A stretch of DNA of 64,000 nt. Origin: an uncultured Flavobacteriaceae bacterium. Its GTDB lineage: Bacteria > Bacteroidota > Bacteroidia > Flavobacteriales > Flavobacteriaceae. The stretch lies in assembly GCA_947486785.1 (NCBI GenBank), contig CANKUU010000004.1, positions 1-64,000 on the forward strand, written 5' to 3'. Positions within the stretch are counted from its first letter, which is position 1, and the number at the start of each line of letters is the position of its first letter. Both the position numbers and the translations under genes were made by a program. Positions 41,301 to 48,608 of the stretch are shown in pieces. Under the pieces are notes generated by a model. The model did not search any database, was not told the DNA's origin, and was given only the letters and a program-made list of their open reading frames with translations.

Positions 41301-42350
41301 ATGATTAAATCTTTGGCACTATTTAGTTTTTTAACCCTAATTATTGCGTGCGGTAGTCACCAAGCAGACCCTGCGCTACTTTTTGATATCTCTTTGGATG
41401 AAAATAAAACACAATTTCAACAAAATGAAGCCGTTCGAGTTCAAATAAACAACAAAAAGAATAAGAGCATTGAAGCGGTCACGTACTATATTGATGACAA
41501 AGTTTTACCTGTTAAAGACCATACGGTAGTATTCGATATGAAAACCTTAGGTAACAAAACCTTAAAAGCGGTTATTGAATTTGAAGATACTTCGGTTGAA
41601 GTATATAAAAAAATAAAAGTGCTTGCAGAAAAAGCACCTGAAATATACACCTACGACATCGTTAACATCTACCCACATGACACCAACGCCTATACCCAAG
41701 GTCTTGAATTTTATCAAGATACCTTATATGAAAGTACAGGTAAATTAGGTCGTTCTACCTTACGAAAAGTTGATTATAAATCGGGAAAAATATTAAAGAA
41801 AATTGATCTTGATGATGCTGTTTTCGGAGAAGGTATGACTATTTTAAACGGAAAAATTTACCAGCTTACCTGGAAAAGCAAAATTGGATACATTTATGAT
41901 TTAAAAGACTTTAAAAAAATAGATAATTTTCAATATGGAGAGAGTAAAGTAGGCTGGGGATTGGCAAATGACGGTACTAAATTATTTAAAAGCGACGGAA
42001 CAGAGCGAATTTGGTTCTTAAACCCCGAAACCCTCGTAGAGCAAGGCCATATTGACATCGTAACAAATTCTGCCATTTTTAACAAGGCAAATGAACTTGA
42101 ATACGTCAACGGAAAGCTTTTCGCTAATGTATATCAAAAACCAAGTATGATGATACTTGATGCATCAAGCGGTGCAATTGAAGGCGTGGTTAATTTTAGT
42201 GGTCTTTTAGAAAAAGTGACCAAAACTGAAAACTGGGATGCCGTTAATAATGTTTTAAACGGCATAGCGTATCACCCAACTAAAAAAACTTTCTTTGTAA
42301 CCGGAAAAGATTGGGACAAACTATTCGAAGTAACAATTCGGAAAAAATAA
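41301..42350 (+). CDS. Glutaminyl-peptide cyclotransferase (plant/type I) lipoprotein
   Basis: Cyclises N-terminal glutamine to pyroglutamate. A 349-residue lipoprotein, lipobox IIACG (cysteine at about 17). A short beta domain (about 25-110) precedes a five-bladed propeller typical of type I QCs. Seen: IYPHDTNAYTQGLEF, YESTGKLGRSTLRKVD, GEGMTILNGKIYQLTWK, WGLANDGTKLFKSDG, ELEYVNGKLFANVY and LNGIAYHPTKKTFFVTGKDW. It would act on proteins exported by signal peptidase I. A thioesterase gene follows 12 bases later. Confidence 0.9.
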   Translation: MIKSLALFSFLTLIIACGSHQADPALLFDISLDENKTQFQQNEAVRVQINNKKNKSIEAVTYYIDDKVLPVKDHTVVFDMKTLGNKTLKAVIEFEDTSVEVYKKIKVLAEKAPEIYTYDIVNIYPHDTNAYTQGLEFYQDTLYESTGKLGRSTLRKVDYKSGKILKKIDLDDAVFGEGMTILNGKIYQLTWKSKIGYIYDLKDFKKIDNFQYGESKVGWGLANDGTKLFKSDGTERIWFLNPETLVEQGHIDIVTNSAIFNKANELEYVNGKLFANVYQKPSMMILDASSGAIEGVVNFSGLLEKVTKTENWDAVNNVLNGIAYHPTKKTFFVTGKDWDKLFEVTIRKK

Positions 42351-42841: not shown

Positions 42842-44374
42842 ATGCGCTATTATTTTTTTATTATTCTTTTACTTCTTAGTATTATTTTAGGTAATTCTTG
42901 CCGAAAAAATTTAGAATATGCCCCAAGTGCAGGAAATTTAGAGTTTTCAAAAGACACAGTATTTTTAGACACTATTTTTACAAATATTGCGAGTAGTACT
43001 CATACCCTAAAAGTATATAACAGAACTAGAGACGATATAGAAATTCCGTCAATTCAATTGGCTAAAGGTGAAAACAGTAAATATCGTTTAAATGTCGACG
43101 GTATTGCAGGTAAAAATTTTAAAAATATACCCATTTTCGCTCAAGACAGTCTTTTCATTTTTATAGAAACAACAATTGATAACCCTAGTTTAGAAAAAGA
43201 ATTTCTTTATACTGATGCAATTGAATTTGATGCTGGCGACTTCTTACAACAAGTAGAATTAGTAACCCTAGTAAAAGAGGCCATTTTTATTTATCCTAGA
43301 ACGCTTTCTAATGGTACAAAAGAAACTTTTTCTATTGGCGTTGATGAATTAGGTAACGAAGTTACTGTTATGGGATCTTCTTTAAAAGAGAATCAACTAG
43401 TATTCTCAAAAGACAAACCTTATGTTATATATGGATACGCCAAAGTACCAAGGAGCAAAAAACTTGTTATAGACGCAGGCGCACGGGTATACTTTCACAA
43501 AGACTCTGGTATTTATGTTGAATCAGGCGCAACTATAGAAATTAACGGTAGACTTAGTGAAGATCAAGAAACATTGGAAAATGAAGTAATTTTTCAAGGT
43601 GATCGATTAAATGAAACCTACAAAACTTTGTCTGGCCAATGGGGCTCCACCTATATTGCATCTGGTAGTACTGCAAATAAGATTAATCATTTAACTATTA
43701 AAAACGCAACAATTGGGCTAGTAGTAGAAGGTAACGGGAGACTTGAGACACCAACTCTAGAAATACAAAACACGCAAATATATAACAGCTCTAGTGTAGG
43801 TTTATGGTCTAAAACTGCGTTTATAAATGGACAAAACCTTGTCCTCGGAAGTGCAGGAAAAACATCACTATTCTGTAGTTTAGGAGGTAAATATTCTTTT
43901 AAACATTGTACAATTGCCAATTATTGGTCTACTAGTTTTCGAGTTGGTACGGCGCTCGAAATTAATAATTTTAACACTACACAAGCAGCAAACCTTAGTC
44001 AAGCCAATTTTATAAATTGCATCATAGATGGTAATAGTAGTTTTGAACTAAGTTTAGCTTCAAATCAATCAAATAGTTTTGAGTATTCTTTTACCAATTG
44101 CTCATTGAAATTTATAGCTGATAGCAATAACAATAGCGACTTGTATGATTTTGAAAACCGCGATAAATTTGATCAAATATTTTTTAATGAAGATATAAAT
44201 TTCTTAAACGTTGCTGAAAATGATTTTAGAATAGGAAAAAATGAAACCTCTAATAGTATTGCAAATAATGCTGCTGCCGTACAGGTTCCTTTAGACATCC
44301 TTGGTATTGACCGAACAAACATGCCCACAATTGGCGCATACCAAGAAAAAAGTGAAAGTGAAAATATACCTTAG
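42842..44374 (+). CDS. Large lipoprotein with right-handed beta-helix repeat
   Basis: A 510-residue lipoprotein. The start is taken as the ATG at 42842, because the signal helix (MRYYFFIILLLLS) and lipobox NSC begin there; the frame is open 17 codons further up to a TTG. After an N-terminal beta region (TVFLDTIFTNIASSTHTLKVY), the centre (about 240-440) has strands typical of parallel beta-helices, such as TIEINGRL, NKINHLTIKNATIGLV, TLEIQNTQIYNSSS and INCIIDGNSSF. No catalytic residues are obvious. Such proteins often bind polysaccharides. Confidence 0.72.
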   Translation: MRYYFFIILLLLSIILGNSCRKNLEYAPSAGNLEFSKDTVFLDTIFTNIASSTHTLKVYNRTRDDIEIPSIQLAKGENSKYRLNVDGIAGKNFKNIPIFAQDSLFIFIETTIDNPSLEKEFLYTDAIEFDAGDFLQQVELVTLVKEAIFIYPRTLSNGTKETFSIGVDELGNEVTVMGSSLKENQLVFSKDKPYVIYGYAKVPRSKKLVIDAGARVYFHKDSGIYVESGATIEINGRLSEDQETLENEVIFQGDRLNETYKTLSGQWGSTYIASGSTANKINHLTIKNATIGLVVEGNGRLETPTLEIQNTQIYNSSSVGLWSKTAFINGQNLVLGSAGKTSLFCSLGGKYSFKHCTIANYWSTSFRVGTALEINNFNTTQAANLSQANFINCIIDGNSSFELSLASNQSNSFEYSFTNCSLKFIADSNNNSDLYDFENRDKFDQIFFNEDINFLNVAENDFRIGKNETSNSIANNAAAVQVPLDILGIDRTNMPTIGAYQEKSESENIP

Positions 44375-44505
44375 CTGACACTTTTAGCAGGCGCCTTTTC
44401 ATTAAAAAATTTAAAATTTACTACAAAAACCTCAATTAATATATGGTTTACCTTGGTTTTAAATTTCAAGACTATTGTTATTTTGCATAAATACATGCAA
44501 AGATC

Positions 44506-45237
44506 ATGGCCTACCAATACACCATAATTGATTCGAATGAGAGCTCTAATTTAAAATTACAACAGTATTTGAAAGAATACGGAGAATTCATCTGTTGTTC
44601 GATAGCAAAAAATAGCATTGAAGGTTTAAACGAAATACTTAAGCATTCGCCAGACATTGTATTCATAAATTTAAATGAGAATTCAAGTGCCTATTTTCAA
44701 ATGACAACAGAGCTTCACCAATATGGCAATTGCATTCCCATTTTTATCGGTATATCAGAAAATAAAAAATATGCTTACGAAGCCTTAAAAAGCAATTTTT
44801 TCGATTATTGGCTTTTTCCTTACAATGAGTTTGATATTCGCAAATCGATGATGCGGTTAAAAAAGAGCATGCCCCAAGAAGAAATTCCGCATACCTTATG
44901 CTTAAAGTCATACCGTGATTTTCAATACTTAAACACTAATGACATTTTGTACTTACGCGCCGATAATAATTCGACAGAATTTATAATGAAAGACGGAACA
45001 ATTAACAATGCATTTAAAACGCTTAAGACCTTTGAAAACCAGATGCCTAAGAATTTTATTCGTATTCATCAAAGCTACATGGTAAACATAAACTATATTT
45101 CACGAATTAGTTATGGCAAAGCGATTTGTACGTTAAAGCATCATAAAGTACAATTACCATTCTCTAAATCTTACCGAAAAAACATCGATAAGCTAAAGAA
45201 ACTGCTTACGAAAAATGCAATTTCTTCTTTAAATTAG
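44506..45237 (+). CDS. LytTR DNA-binding protein with degenerate receiver domain
   Basis: A 243-residue regulator. The C-terminal LytTR domain is intact (FIRIHQSYMVNINYISRI). The N-terminal part folds like a receiver but has lost the phosphorylation centre: the phosphoacceptor position in DIVFINLNE is N55, and the conserved lysine in YWLFPYNEFD is replaced (F104). It should therefore not work by ordinary phosphotransfer. It precedes a small peptide gene and a kinase/NarL pair. Its signal may be a ligand, protein binding or expression level. Confidence 0.85.
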   Translation: MAYQYTIIDSNESSNLKLQQYLKEYGEFICCSIAKNSIEGLNEILKHSPDIVFINLNENSSAYFQMTTELHQYGNCIPIFIGISENKKYAYEALKSNFFDYWLFPYNEFDIRKSMMRLKKSMPQEEIPHTLCLKSYRDFQYLNTNDILYLRADNNSTEFIMKDGTINNAFKTLKTFENQMPKNFIRIHQSYMVNINYISRISYGKAICTLKHHKVQLPFSKSYRKNIDKLKKLLTKNAISSLN

Positions 45238-45382
45238 GTTAATTCTCGTCAACATAGGCCAGATACTCGCAAAAAACTACTATTTACCGCCAAATTATTT
45301 TGCAGCCATTTTAAAATTACATCGACAGTTACATTTACTTCGAAATTCTAACGAAATATTAACTCTTATTAATTACATTATC

Positions 45383-45553
45383 ATGAAAAAAGTAGCAAGC
45401 ATTTTAGCAGTAGTGTTGTTCGCATTAGGAATGTTCTCAACTCAAATTGAGAATACCTTAGATGCTAATTTTGATCTTGAATCTATGTTGGCATGCGGTA
45501 ACTGTGCTGATGAAGGTGATCGAGGTAGAGATGGTGGTTTTAAGTGGGCTTAA
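45383..45553 (+). CDS. Small secreted cysteine-containing peptide
   Basis: A 56-codon gene, ATG at 45383, TAA at 45551-45553. The N-terminus KKVASILAVVLFALGMF is a hydrophobic export signal. The remaining 35 or so residues (ENTLDANFDLESM) end in the compact acidic/glycine-rich tail LACGNCADEGDRGRDGGFK with two cysteines spaced C-x2-C. A 17-bp terminator hairpin with a T10 run follows 18 bases after the stop, so it is a unit of its own. It is flanked by a degenerate-receiver LytTR gene and a sensor kinase. No family is known to me; a signal or structural peptide is possible. Confidence 0.72.
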   Translation: MKKVASILAVVLFALGMFSTQIENTLDANFDLESMLACGNCADEGDRGRDGGFKWA

Positions 45554-45570
45554 TACACAACACTAAAATA

Positions 45571-45615
45571 AAAAAGGGGTTAAATCTAAGATTTAGCACC
45601 TTTTTTTTTTATCTT
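45571..45615 (+). terminator. Terminator of the small peptide gene
   Basis: A 15-17-bp stem (AAAAAGGGGTTAAATCT against AGATTTAGCACCTTTTT, with one mismatch and one wobble) and a T10 run. It ends 12 bases before the TTG start of the histidine kinase gene. Confidence 0.9.
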
Positions 45616-45626
45616 GTAGTAAAAAA

Positions 45627-47708
45627 TTGAAAACGTCCCCCATTCGTATTCGCCTATTTCTTAAACTGCTGCTATGCATTCATTTTGTTTTAGCTGTTTG
45701 TGCTTGTGATCAAAAGAAGATAACTGAATTTGAGACCGCAAATTACAACACAGCCAAAGACAGCATAAAAATATGGATTTCTCAGTCTAAACAAGTTAAC
45801 ACCTCACCTGAGAGGAGACTATTTTTGCTGCAAAAAATACTAAAAGCAGTTTTAAAAATAGAGAACGACACACTTAAAAGCGATTATCTTAAGCGTCTTT
45901 CTTATGAGTGCTTAAAGGCTAAAGACACCAGAATTTTTAAAAAAGTAAACCGAGAGGCCATCTTAGCTGCGGCAAAAATAAAAGACTCTAACAGTTTAGC
46001 AAATCTTTATTGGGATTTAGGCATTTTTTATCGAGAAAACTCTGTTAAATCTGACAGTTCTTACTATAACTATAAACTAGCCAACAACCTTTTTAATGCA
46101 TTAAATGATCATTATTCTAGCGGCAGAATGCTTCTAGAAATGGCGTGGATACAAAATTTTATAGGTGATTACACAGGTAGCGATATTACTGCAATCAAAG
46201 CTATAGAAAAATTAAAGTCACTCGACAAGTTCGATAAGTACATAGATCTAAAAAGGTGCTATATATTGCTTGGTGATAATGCGCAGTTACTCAACGATTA
46301 CGACCGATCTCTTATTTACTTTAATCAAGCACTTGAGTACTTAAAAAAATCAAAATCAGGCAAGATCAAAGAACAGATTATTTCAAATAGTATTGCTCTA
46401 GTTTATCAATCAAAAGGGCAACATAAAACAGCCATCGATTATTTTAAAGGTATTATTTCTGTAGATAGTCTTCGCTACAAAAACCCCAAACTATATGCTA
46501 GAGCTTTAAGCAATTTAGCTTACAGCTATTTAAAAATTGATAATACATCTCAACTTCCAGAGCTATTTTTTAAGGCTGCTGCCTTACAAGATGATATCAA
46601 CGATTCCAGGGGGAAGGTTTCTAGCAACTTTAGAATAGCTGAATATTTTCTAGAAAATAAAGACACTGTTAATGCTTCAAAATATTTATCTGAAGCAAAA
46701 AAAATGGCTTCATTAACAAGTGATAATAAAGCCTTGTTGAAAATATTAAGAATGTATCCTAGGGTAGACCCCGACAACGTTGTACACTATTCTCAAGAAT
46801 ATCTTACCCTAAATGATAGCCTGTTAACGCAAGAACGAAAAATTAGAAACAAATTTGCACGTATTCAGTTCGAAACCGATGAGTTTATTGCCAAGAACGA
46901 GTATTTGTCACGTCAGAATAAATGGTGGGTTAGTATTGCAATCGCTCTATTTCTTTTAGGTTTAGCTACTTTTATTATTGTTAGCCAACGAATTAAAAAC
47001 CAAAACCTTCGGTTTAAAGAACAACAACAACTGAGCAATCAAGAAATTTTTAATTTATTATTGAGTCAAAAAGAAAAAGTACAAGAGGGCAAAAAACTAG
47101 AGCAGAAGCGCATATCTGAAGAGCTACATGATGGTGTTTTAGGTAAAATGTTGGGTGCAAGAATGATGCTTTTGGGTTTGAATAAAAAAAATGATCCCGC
47201 AGCCGTAGCAGAAAGAGCAAGAGCCATTTCAATTTTGCAAGAAGTCGAAGGCGAGGTAAGAGCTATTTCTCATGAATTAAGTCATGCGGCTTATCAAAAA
47301 ATTGATAACTTTATTTTATCGATTAAAGATTTATTACAAACGGTAAAAAATGCTTCGAACATAAATATTGATTTTGAATATTCTTCAGAGCTAGATTACG
47401 ATAGCCTACAGGGAGAAATAAAAATAAATTTATACCGTATGATTCAAGAAATCATACAAAATGCCGTTAAACATGCAGCATGTAATAATATTAAATTAGT
47501 TTTTAAGGAAATCAAAGGGCTACTAAAAGTAACTATTTCTGACGATGGCAAAGGTTTTATTTTAAATAAAGGAACTAAAAAAGGTATTGGCACTCGAAAT
47601 ATAAAATCAAGAATTAAAAAAATAAATGGTAACTGGATTATCGATAGTAATTTAGGAAAAGGCACAAAAGTGAGTCTTAGCATCCCTATTGTTAACTCAA
47701 ATAGTTAG
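45627..47708 (+). CDS. TPR histidine kinase (HisKA_3) with lipoprotein-like signal
   Basis: A 693-residue sensor kinase. The start is TTG at 45627, with no in-frame ATG nearby. The N-terminus is a signal with lipobox-like VCAC (cysteine at about 28). The region about 40-400 carries TPR-like repeats (LLGDNAQLLNDYDRSLIYFN). A membrane helix lies at about 432-453. The phosphorylation motif is RISEELHDGVLGKMLGARM with H501; the ATPase has an N box (NLYRMIQEIIQNAVKHA) and IKSRIKKINGNW. It forms a pair with the NarL-type regulator 53 bases downstream. The TPRs probably sense a periplasmic peptide or protein. Confidence 0.9.
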   Translation: MKTSPIRIRLFLKLLLCIHFVLAVCACDQKKITEFETANYNTAKDSIKIWISQSKQVNTSPERRLFLLQKILKAVLKIENDTLKSDYLKRLSYECLKAKDTRIFKKVNREAILAAAKIKDSNSLANLYWDLGIFYRENSVKSDSSYYNYKLANNLFNALNDHYSSGRMLLEMAWIQNFIGDYTGSDITAIKAIEKLKSLDKFDKYIDLKRCYILLGDNAQLLNDYDRSLIYFNQALEYLKKSKSGKIKEQIISNSIALVYQSKGQHKTAIDYFKGIISVDSLRYKNPKLYARALSNLAYSYLKIDNTSQLPELFFKAAALQDDINDSRGKVSSNFRIAEYFLENKDTVNASKYLSEAKKMASLTSDNKALLKILRMYPRVDPDNVVHYSQEYLTLNDSLLTQERKIRNKFARIQFETDEFIAKNEYLSRQNKWWVSIAIALFLLGLATFIIVSQRIKNQNLRFKEQQQLSNQEIFNLLLSQKEKVQEGKKLEQKRISEELHDGVLGKMLGARMMLLGLNKKNDPAAVAERARAISILQEVEGEVRAISHELSHAAYQKIDNFILSIKDLLQTVKNASNINIDFEYSSELDYDSLQGEIKINLYRMIQEIIQNAVKHAACNNIKLVFKEIKGLLKVTISDDGKGFILNKGTKKGIGTRNIKSRIKKINGNWIIDSNLGKGTKVSLSIPIVNSNS

Positions 47709-47761
47709 TAAAAATCACAAACTAGAACAAGACCACCAACAAAATATTTAAAAACGCAGCG

Positions 47762-48439
47762 ATGGAAGAAATGGAAGTAATAAGAATACTAGCAATTGAC
47801 GATCATGAAATGACTACATTGGGGTACAAGTATATCTTAGAAGGGCAAGAATTTGATGATTTTAAGGTTAAAGTTGAAATAGCTACTAGTTTTGACATGG
47901 GTAAAGAAAAAATAGAATTTTCTGCTCGGGCACTAAAATATGATATCTTATTATTAGATATTCAATTATTTCCTTCACACTCCAATGAAATACGAAGCGG
48001 TGAAGACTTAGGTATTCTTGCAAGAAAATTAGTGCCAGACACAAAAGTGGTATTTATGTCATCATTTAGTGACAACTTAAGAATTAACAGTATTTTTAAA
48101 TCTGTTGACCCAGATGGGTACATGGTGAAGTCAGAAATTGATGAAAAATCACTTCGAATGATGGTAGAAACTGTCCTAAAAAAACCTCCCTACTATACCG
48201 CAGGAGCATTTGCCGCAATGAGAAGACGCATGACTAATGACCTTGTTGTGGACGATTTAGACAAAAAAATACTCTATTATTTATCTATTGGAACAAGAAC
48301 TAAAGATATTGCTCCCAAAATATCTTCTGCGACTACTACAGTTGAATCGAGAAAAAGACAATTAAAATCTCTTTTTGGCATTGAAAGCGGCAATGATATC
48401 AGCCTAGTGGAAGAGGCACGTAAAAAAGGATTCATCTAG
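47762..48439 (+). CDS. NarL-family response regulator
   Basis: A 225-residue response regulator. The receiver has IDD (D13/D14), phosphoacceptor D66 in DILLLDIQLF, and a lysine in YMVKSEID. The C-terminal LuxR-type HTH is TRTKDIAPKISSATTTVESR. This HTH is more divergent than usual but keeps the length. It pairs with the kinase encoded immediately upstream. A terminator lies 61 bases after its stop. Confidence 0.9.
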   Translation: MEEMEVIRILAIDDHEMTTLGYKYILEGQEFDDFKVKVEIATSFDMGKEKIEFSARALKYDILLLDIQLFPSHSNEIRSGEDLGILARKLVPDTKVVFMSSFSDNLRINSIFKSVDPDGYMVKSEIDEKSLRMMVETVLKKPPYYTAGAFAAMRRRMTNDLVVDDLDKKILYYLSIGTRTKDIAPKISSATTTVESRKRQLKSLFGIESGNDISLVEEARKKGFI

Positions 48440-48500
48440 AGATCAAATACGTATTTTCTTACTTAAGTCAATATAAACCAACTACTTAAAGTAATTATCG

Positions 48501-48541
48501 GCCTTATAAAAAACGAAAACCTCATTTTTTATAAGGCTTTT
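48501..48541 (+). terminator. Terminator of the kinase/NarL operon
   Basis: A perfect 13-bp stem (GCCTTATAAAAAA with TTTTTTATAAGGC) and 11-base loop, followed by TTTT. Confidence 0.88.
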
Positions 48542-48608
48542 GTATAACGAAAAACCATTGGTAAAAATTAAATTTACATCATCTACCAATCTTACTAAAG
48601 TTGTACTT

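Follow-up and report, generated by a model that had tools for sequence, protein, structure and literature searches.

The locus studied here raises the question of what a gene of only 56 codons, encoding a peptide with a predicted export signal, is doing between a DNA-binding regulator and a two-component pair in the genome of an uncultured Flavobacteriaceae bacterium. Using a combination of sequence searches, comparison of homologous loci and structure prediction, starting from a window of 64,000 nucleotides (the whole stretch of DNA that was analysed), we arrive at a reading of the cluster as a peptide-pheromone two-component system, in which the core of an exported precursor would be sensed by a kinase with a TPR domain that acts on a NarL-type regulator. 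We put the probability of this reading at roughly 0.6.

The peptide gene and its neighbours

On the + strand the order is LytTR regulator, 56-codon gene, terminator, TPR histidine kinase and response regulator, and the features that the argument draws on are as follows, in coordinates of the window.

41301..42350, + strand: glutaminyl cyclase (PF05096, E 2e-85), 3 kb upstream of the peptide gene
44506..45237, + strand: LytTR DNA-binding regulator with a degenerate receiver (PF04397, E 1.4e-18)
45238..45382, + strand: intergenic region of conserved length, where promoter-like boxes are frequent in homologues
45383..45553, + strand: peptide precursor gene, 56 residues, ATG to TAA; its core is single-copy in this genome
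45383..45442, + strand: Sec signal peptide, residues 1-20, from the sequence, with predicted cleavage before Gln21
45494..45550, + strand: proposed core or mature region CGNCADEGDRGRDGGFKWA, residues 38-56, placed by the position of the repeat unit in homologues, with putative exact ends
45570..45611, + strand: Rho-independent terminator of the peptide gene (fold z -6.4, T run)
45627..47708, + strand: sensor histidine kinase with a TTG start, TPR, HisKA_3 and HATPase_c domains, a lipobox-like N-terminus and a TM helix
47762..48439, + strand: response regulator with a divergent LuxR/NarL-type HTH; acceptor Asp, Lys and acid pocket present

The first-pass annotation had described a complete 56-residue gene with an export signal, a C-x2-C tail and a strong terminator of its own, set between a LytTR regulator with a dead receiver and a kinase/NarL regulator pair, and our analysis agrees on each count. 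The frame runs from ATG to TAA as described. Its Sec-type export signal, MKKVASILAVVLFALGMFST followed by Q, has Gln at the predicted +1 position, and the tail ACGNCADEGDRGRDGGFKWA contains C-x2-C. The full precursor reads MKKVASILAVVLFALGMFST followed directly by QIENTLDANFDLESMLACGNCADEGDRGRDGGFKWA, with ST on one side of the predicted cut and Q on the other, a cut predicted from the Q-rule published for signal peptidase I of Bacteroidetes (PMC5837995, in excerpt). The T-Q junction recurs in 9 of the 10 CxxC-type members of the genus; the expression used to search for it across the loci missed the window itself, so that counts made with it are minimum values. If the two genes are linked, the glutaminyl cyclase encoded upstream may serve to cap a peptide with Gln at its N-terminus.

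Folding of 45554-45612 gives -15.1 kcal/mol, or z -6.4 relative to 200 shuffled versions, and a T run closes the stretch; a simple promoter/terminator scanner did not detect this terminator. At 109 of 116 homologous loci a T run is accompanied by a hairpin of -6 kcal/mol or better, a count made without a shuffled control. Upstream of the gene, three boxes that were picked by eye from the sequences and only then counted recur in the 116 homologous gaps: a promoter-like TAnTTTAG about 47 nt before the ATG (55 gaps against 2.5 expected), TTYACTA at about -96 (50 against 10.7) and AACCCC(Y)TAAA at about -22 (30 against 0.2). The window's own gap, 45238..45382, holds no exact TAnTTTAG box.

The LytTR protein of the window carries Asn at the phospho-acceptor position and Phe at the position of the switch Lys, in agreement with a dead receiver, and among 103 aligned homologues the acceptor Asp is present in 2 and the Lys in 11. 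Both partners of the two-component pair keep their catalytic residues: the catalytic His and N-box Asn of the kinase are found at 103 of 103 loci, as are the acceptor Asp, Lys and acid pocket of the response regulator, whose Pfam Response_reg and GerE matches are sub-threshold in the window while a NarL model gives E 3.2e-6. Among the four genes of the window's cluster we saw none for an exporter or a protease.

The peptide itself resembles no catalogued family. Pfam gave no match to it at E <= 10, and the one NCBIfam match was far below the curated cut-off; Rfam placed no family within 44300-48600. Eight homologous peptides were also scanned, none of which rose above an NCBIfam cut-off. Six Pfam matches among them exceeded the cut-off on summed bits (five for locus L066, one for L168), but in each of them 0 or 1 stretch passed by itself and the domains named are unrelated, and we rejected these as a true family, taking them as repeat artefacts.

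Conservation beside the kinase

We used LytTR as bait for homologous loci at E <= 1e-30. Such homologues occur in 116 of 396 family genomes, and in a class-wide sample of 198 genomes matches came only from the window's own genome and two others of the same family. Loci were gathered from family genomes (80, taking in the matches of roughly 50% identity or more) and from the best 80 of 442 named relatives, with G076, G351, the second LytTR copy of G068 and further rows below 50% identity added later. Before these additions, 163 loci reduce to 129 with distinct LytTR, of which 119 have a LytTR at least 50% identical, three of them cut by a contig end. Loci with LytTR below 50% are a sample, 10 at first and then 18 (including G351, at 37% by full alignment), and the later additions served presence counts only, standing outside the array, selection and co-variation tests.

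With this set, the cluster proves conserved. Where LytTR is 50% or more identical, every one of the 117 untruncated loci examined (116, plus L187 at 50%) has an ORF for an exported peptide after LytTR, a median of 141 nt downstream of it across the 116; a kinase follows within 1.2 kb at 113 of these 116, and the regulator was found at 105. By tblastn, the peptide matched 13 of 14 genomes in the genus, counting that of the window, at E 2.6e-4 or better; in the fourteenth, G005, a diverged peptide occupies the slot (L097). Another genome of the genus, G007, has a LytTR identical in sequence to that of Maribacter algarum RZ26, which places the window in the Maribacter neighbourhood of the family. 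The expectation that homologues of the peptide would be found, its frame kept in place and LytTR and kinase genes adjacent is borne out in many Flavobacteriaceae. Close pairs also show coding selection, whose absence had been named beforehand as evidence against a gene: over 16 independent pairs, which were picked for protein similarity (ratio >=0.72, a choice that lowers pN and leaves pS unaffected), dN/dS is 0.16 for the whole peptide and 0.13 for its mature part, indicating purifying selection.

Linkage extends to absence. Among 28 distant loci (LytTR <50%), a peptide was called at 24 of the 25 with a kinase and at none of the three without one; at these three (L091, L092 and L197, LytTR 42-45% identical), LytTR is followed by a NarL-type regulator, with neither a TPR kinase match nor a called peptide. 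L090 is the sole distant locus with a kinase but without a called peptide. The called ORF of L093 is just 27 aa long, and L188 has an 89-aa ORF without a recognisable core. In the distant LytTR group a TPR kinase is preceded, in the same slot, by small lipoproteins whose cores are often of the ATG(G)D type, and the system therefore appears wider than the set studied in depth.

Several loci deserve separate mention. Small lipoproteins occupy the slot at the distant loci L087-L089, L094-L096, L187, L190-L196 and L198-L206. At L127 the kinase lies 2.7 kb from the peptide and at L128 the kinase frame has 452 residues, a displacement and a shortening that are possibly due to insertion or decay. L189 (G068) carries tandem LytTR homologues at 398-1114 and 1504-2241, 54% and 64% identical to the window's LytTR, upstream of a peptide array.

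This conservation bears on whether the peptide might be an effector or surface product, such as a bacteriocin, an adhesin or a mineral-binding repeat protein, merely controlled by the adjacent regulators. A gene that stands as a monocistron between a promoter-like box and a terminator of its own would suit such a product, and tandem repeats, which we describe below, are common in surface proteins. Yet the slot directly before the kinase is near-constant, peptide and kinase are lost jointly, no immunity or modification genes were seen in the window's cluster, and the divergence of the core follows that of the kinase sensor in close pairs, and we consider an effector or surface product very improbable.

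Repeated cores and a diverging sensor

The peptides have two main core types, CxxC and T-D-G-D-like. The CxxC type is found at 28 of 103 loci, and its association with the lipobox discussed below is not significant over independent pairs. A core of this kind could in principle present an ion or a redox state to the kinase, through CxxC with His/Asp or through an Asp-rich calcium-like loop, and the frequency of CxxC, the acidity of the cores and weak Pfam zinc-ribbon matches for L148 are what such a role would lead one to look for. Those matches lie below their curated cut-offs, however, and the tree calls for at least 12 switches of the CxxC state with the linked genes remaining in place, which leaves a metal or redox function with only a slim chance of being right.

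Cores are often multiplied. Three or more intact copies, ranging from three to fourteen, stand in one precursor at 26 of 123 loci, the remainder of 36 precursors flagged for repeats after exclusion of seven with under two copies, of L142 and L159, whose flags come only from masked letters inside their arrays, and of L082. Zobellia barbeyronii has 10 units of the STDGDDVQIDRRGS type, Maribacter arenosus 8 of the CDDCSHDKDEREAVA type, Arenibacter species 4-7 units of 28 residues and L066 14 units of 34 residues; single-copy relatives have one such core, at the C-terminus, as Z. uliginosa has one unit, and the genome of the window has one copy each of peptide and sensor. Arrays also occur in the one-contig genomes G271, G407 and G068, so an assembly error is unlikely for those. 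A tree built from LytTR, the regulator and the kinase domain implies at least 11 changes of array state (precursor >66 aa). In L082 (G430; ORF 132-1008 nt past the LytTR stop), the array shifts frame after about four units and continues as a basic, Arg-rich repeat, either a real feature or an assembly error.

The units of an array keep their protein sequence while their codons drift. Adjacent units over the 26 arrays differ at pS 0.285 against pN 0.013, in stretches chosen by protein identity, which lowers pN and leaves pS unaffected. In L065, L068 and L083 synonymous sites are near saturation with zero amino-acid change between units, and in L065 and L068 the between-unit pS reaches 0.8 at preserved protein identity. 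Units are also concerted: pN is 0-0.08 within arrays as opposed to 0.03-0.25, mostly above 0.07, between congeners, and in the pair L136/L138 a LytTR pN of 0.014 compares with a unit pN of 0.20. Slippage does homogenise the units in part, as pS within arrays is usually lower than between species, but it does not account for units that stay identical in protein as their codons drift. In 25 of the 26 arrays the last unit runs up to the stop codon, at most three residues off the period (L066, with 17 of 34 residues, being the exception), as if the C-terminus defined the repeat unit, whose ends remain putative. A strict core pattern is present in 77 of 116 precursors, in 53 of these 77 with Ala directly before it.

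Most of the precursors look lipid-anchored, with a lipobox in at least 76 of 116 (the search expression missed L075 and L111, so this is a lower bound), which makes free diffusion uncertain. The tree requires at least eight changes between a lipobox and an ordinary signal peptide. Two or three acidic residues stand at +2 to +6 after the Cys in 58 of the 76 lipobox precursors, a count of the acidic residues alone; in the surface lipoproteins of Bacteroidetes, the export motif is a polar residue with acidic residues directly after the lipid-anchored Cys (PMC5080379, in excerpt). Judging from these signals, the cores may reach the cell surface and be shed from there, or they may be active in the periplasm of the producing cell.

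The kinase begins in a similar way: its start (window 45627-45710) encodes a lipobox-like signal, with a Cys27 conserved in >=90% of 92 aligned sequences, suggesting a lipidated sensor domain. It is here that the peptide could instead be viewed as a private co-sensor, a small periplasmic lipoprotein that binds its own kinase and reports lipoprotein-trafficking failure or envelope damage, with RcsF and NlpE as analogues. The lipobox that most precursors have (at least 76 of 116), the near-invariant lipobox-like Cys27 and the close linkage of peptide and kinase, joint absence included, all speak for such a protein, but it would leave unexplained why up to 14 near-identical cores share a precursor, why units are fixed within an array and differ between congeners, and why the lipobox has been swapped for ordinary signal peptides (>=8 state changes). 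On balance we regard a private co-sensor as unlikely.

A pheromone would instead be expected to meet a receptor, and the candidate is the exported TPR superhelix of the kinase (about residues 34-380), placed by sequence between the N-terminal signal/lipobox and the TM helix in the predicted topology. Kinase analyses covered the 103 of 122 loci with a complete kinase and regulator and LytTR >=50%, and the structure alignment 92 of the 103. Structure prediction gave a TPR superhelix with a mean pLDDT of 93.5, whose closest PDB folds are LGN complexes (VIA-align Z ~26-28); the Rap and NprR pheromone receptors match at Z ~22-25, and OGT and other TPR proteins are also among the top matches. Since TPR superhelices are alike whatever they bind, the predicted model indicates a suitable fold, not a function.

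The exported TPR domain diverges steeply beside a conserved kinase, regulator and LytTR. In the Arenibacter pair L174/L175, LytTR is 98% identical, the sensor 42-87% per 60-codon block, the kinase 98-100% and the regulator 100%, and synonymous divergence is likewise uneven (sensor pS 0.59 against 0.15 in the kinase); L159/L169, L142/L152 and L109/L114 have a similar pattern. Over 37 disjoint pairs the sensor pS exceeds the kinase pS in 28 (p 1e-4), with a small gap between medians (0.78 against 0.71), and the sharp mosaics stem from few pairs, namely three of the four with kinase pS <0.45. In these pairs, exchange or old alleles would explain the sequences better than relaxed constraint by itself.

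Core and sensor distances are correlated at close range. In 37 close pairs, with kinase, LytTR and regulator distance removed, the partial rho is 0.47 (p 0.004), and the core shows -0.08 with the kinase; adding the neighbouring upstream gene as a control, in the 18 of 37 pairs having that gene, gives 0.32 (p 0.19), that gene itself standing at 0.04 with the core. Partial Mantel tests across 103 loci, with CxxC, lipobox and array state as the traits, did not tie core type to the sensor in particular (sensor 0.024, LytTR 0.125). A column scan over 10 independent pairs at a threshold of 4.0 found 10 of 763 sensor columns switching with CxxC against 2 of 964, and in a rate-matched scan this excess of sensor columns was not significant. 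Taken together, the close-pair correlation makes co-divergence of core and sensor suggestive, but the family-wide tests are null.

These null tests would suit a reading of arrays and sensor divergence as unrelated by-products, the one arising from repeat slippage and the other because the TPR domain has some other signal to sense and is under relaxed constraint. Repeats do expand easily, and sensor domains often evolve fast. Slippage alone, on the other hand, does not keep protein identity at a pS of 0.8, as in L065 and L068, nor would relaxed constraint lift the sensor pS above the kinase pS, as it is in 28 of 37 pairs, and we find an origin as unrelated by-products improbable.

Proposed mechanism and related systems

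We therefore return to the peptide-pheromone reading and outline the steps that it would involve. The 56-residue gene would encode the precursor of an exported signal peptide. In the organism of the window, the precursor would pass through Sec and be cut by signal peptidase I with Gln at +1; in most relatives it would take the signal peptidase II route, as a lipoprotein. The active part would be a C-terminal core of the CxxC or TDGD type, of about 12-28 residues, of which many relatives string three to fourteen near-identical copies together in one precursor. The TPR superhelix of the neighbouring sensor kinase would recognise this core, free or still attached, and the kinase would in turn phosphorylate the adjacent NarL-type regulator; the upstream, phosphorylation-independent LytTR probably controls transcription of the peptide gene. 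The first-pass annotation had suggested, from position, a peptide-linked signalling system, and this suggestion gains support from the conserved frame, coding selection, arrays, joint absence with the kinase and the close-pair correlation of core and sensor; the function we infer, as we do binding, processing, cell-to-cell rather than self sensing and the role of LytTR. More tentatively, and at somewhat less than even odds, the cluster may belong to a pheromone system found throughout Flavobacteriaceae, with multi-copy precursors, in which peptide and sensor diversify as matched pherotype cassettes beside a conserved kinase, regulator and LytTR.

Several known systems come close. In the ComQXPA system, conservation falls in the order ComA > ComP > ComQ > ComX, and the active C-terminus of ComX and the N-terminal domain of ComP are variable (PMC4008528, in excerpt). 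Like this system of Bacillota, the cluster places a prepeptide, a HisKA_3-type kinase and a LuxR-type regulator side by side (the GerE match of the regulator being sub-threshold here), and combines a variable C-terminal core and receptor domain with a conserved kinase and regulator. Unlike it, the cluster has no ComQ-type isoprenyl transferase among the window ORFs scanned around it, occurs in a Gram-negative family, where its precursor is predicted to leave through Sec or as a lipoprotein, has tandem cores and an extra LytTR gene, and would use an exported TPR superhelix in place of a multi-pass receptor domain.

Tandem Phr propeptides are exported, with up to 8 pheromone copies reported (PMC11343458, in excerpt). 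The cluster resembles the RRNPPA systems of Bacillota (Rap-Phr, NprR-NprX) in exported propeptides, some of them multi-copy, and may resemble them in the receptor, a predicted TPR superhelix that matches Rap and NprR among other TPR proteins; it also resembles the multi-copy Phr precursors in the several near-identical cores at 26 of 123 loci, the window's own being single-copy. RRNPPA receptors sit in the cytoplasm and bind peptide that has been re-imported; here, in contrast, the TPR domain is by its sequence exported and fused to a membrane histidine kinase, in a different phylum and with up to 14 copies. The cluster thus belongs to neither the ComQXPA nor the tandem-Phr family, having no ComQ-type gene and a predicted exported TPR domain fused to a kinase.

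In Agr and ComD-ComE, a peptide precursor lies beside a kinase and a LytTR-type protein, an adjacency that the cluster shares. Its LytTR, unlike theirs, has a dead receiver, the evident partner of the kinase being the NarL-type regulator, and, unlike in Agr, we saw no gene for an AgrB-like processing protein in the cluster of the window. Within Bacteroidetes, the kinase has the same general architecture as FimS-type TPR sensor kinases, although the NCBIfam FimS model matches residues 95-468 of the window kinase (E 3.4e-11) at 42 bits, far below its cut-off of 600.

Peptide quorum sensing is textbook biology for Gram-positive bacteria, and among the matches listed from openly licensed papers on peptide signalling and on this gene arrangement, no such system is described for Bacteroidota. 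The peptide cluster is, in our view, a strong candidate for a bacterial peptide-signalling system that has yet to be described, and it has features which, if confirmed by experiment, would be new to the phylum. If the reading is true, the repeat units are ready-made ligand sequences for synthesis and testing, and congeners provide a natural series in which to follow the co-diversification of ligand and receptor. The cluster would then give a largely marine group of bacteria a species-specific peptide language.
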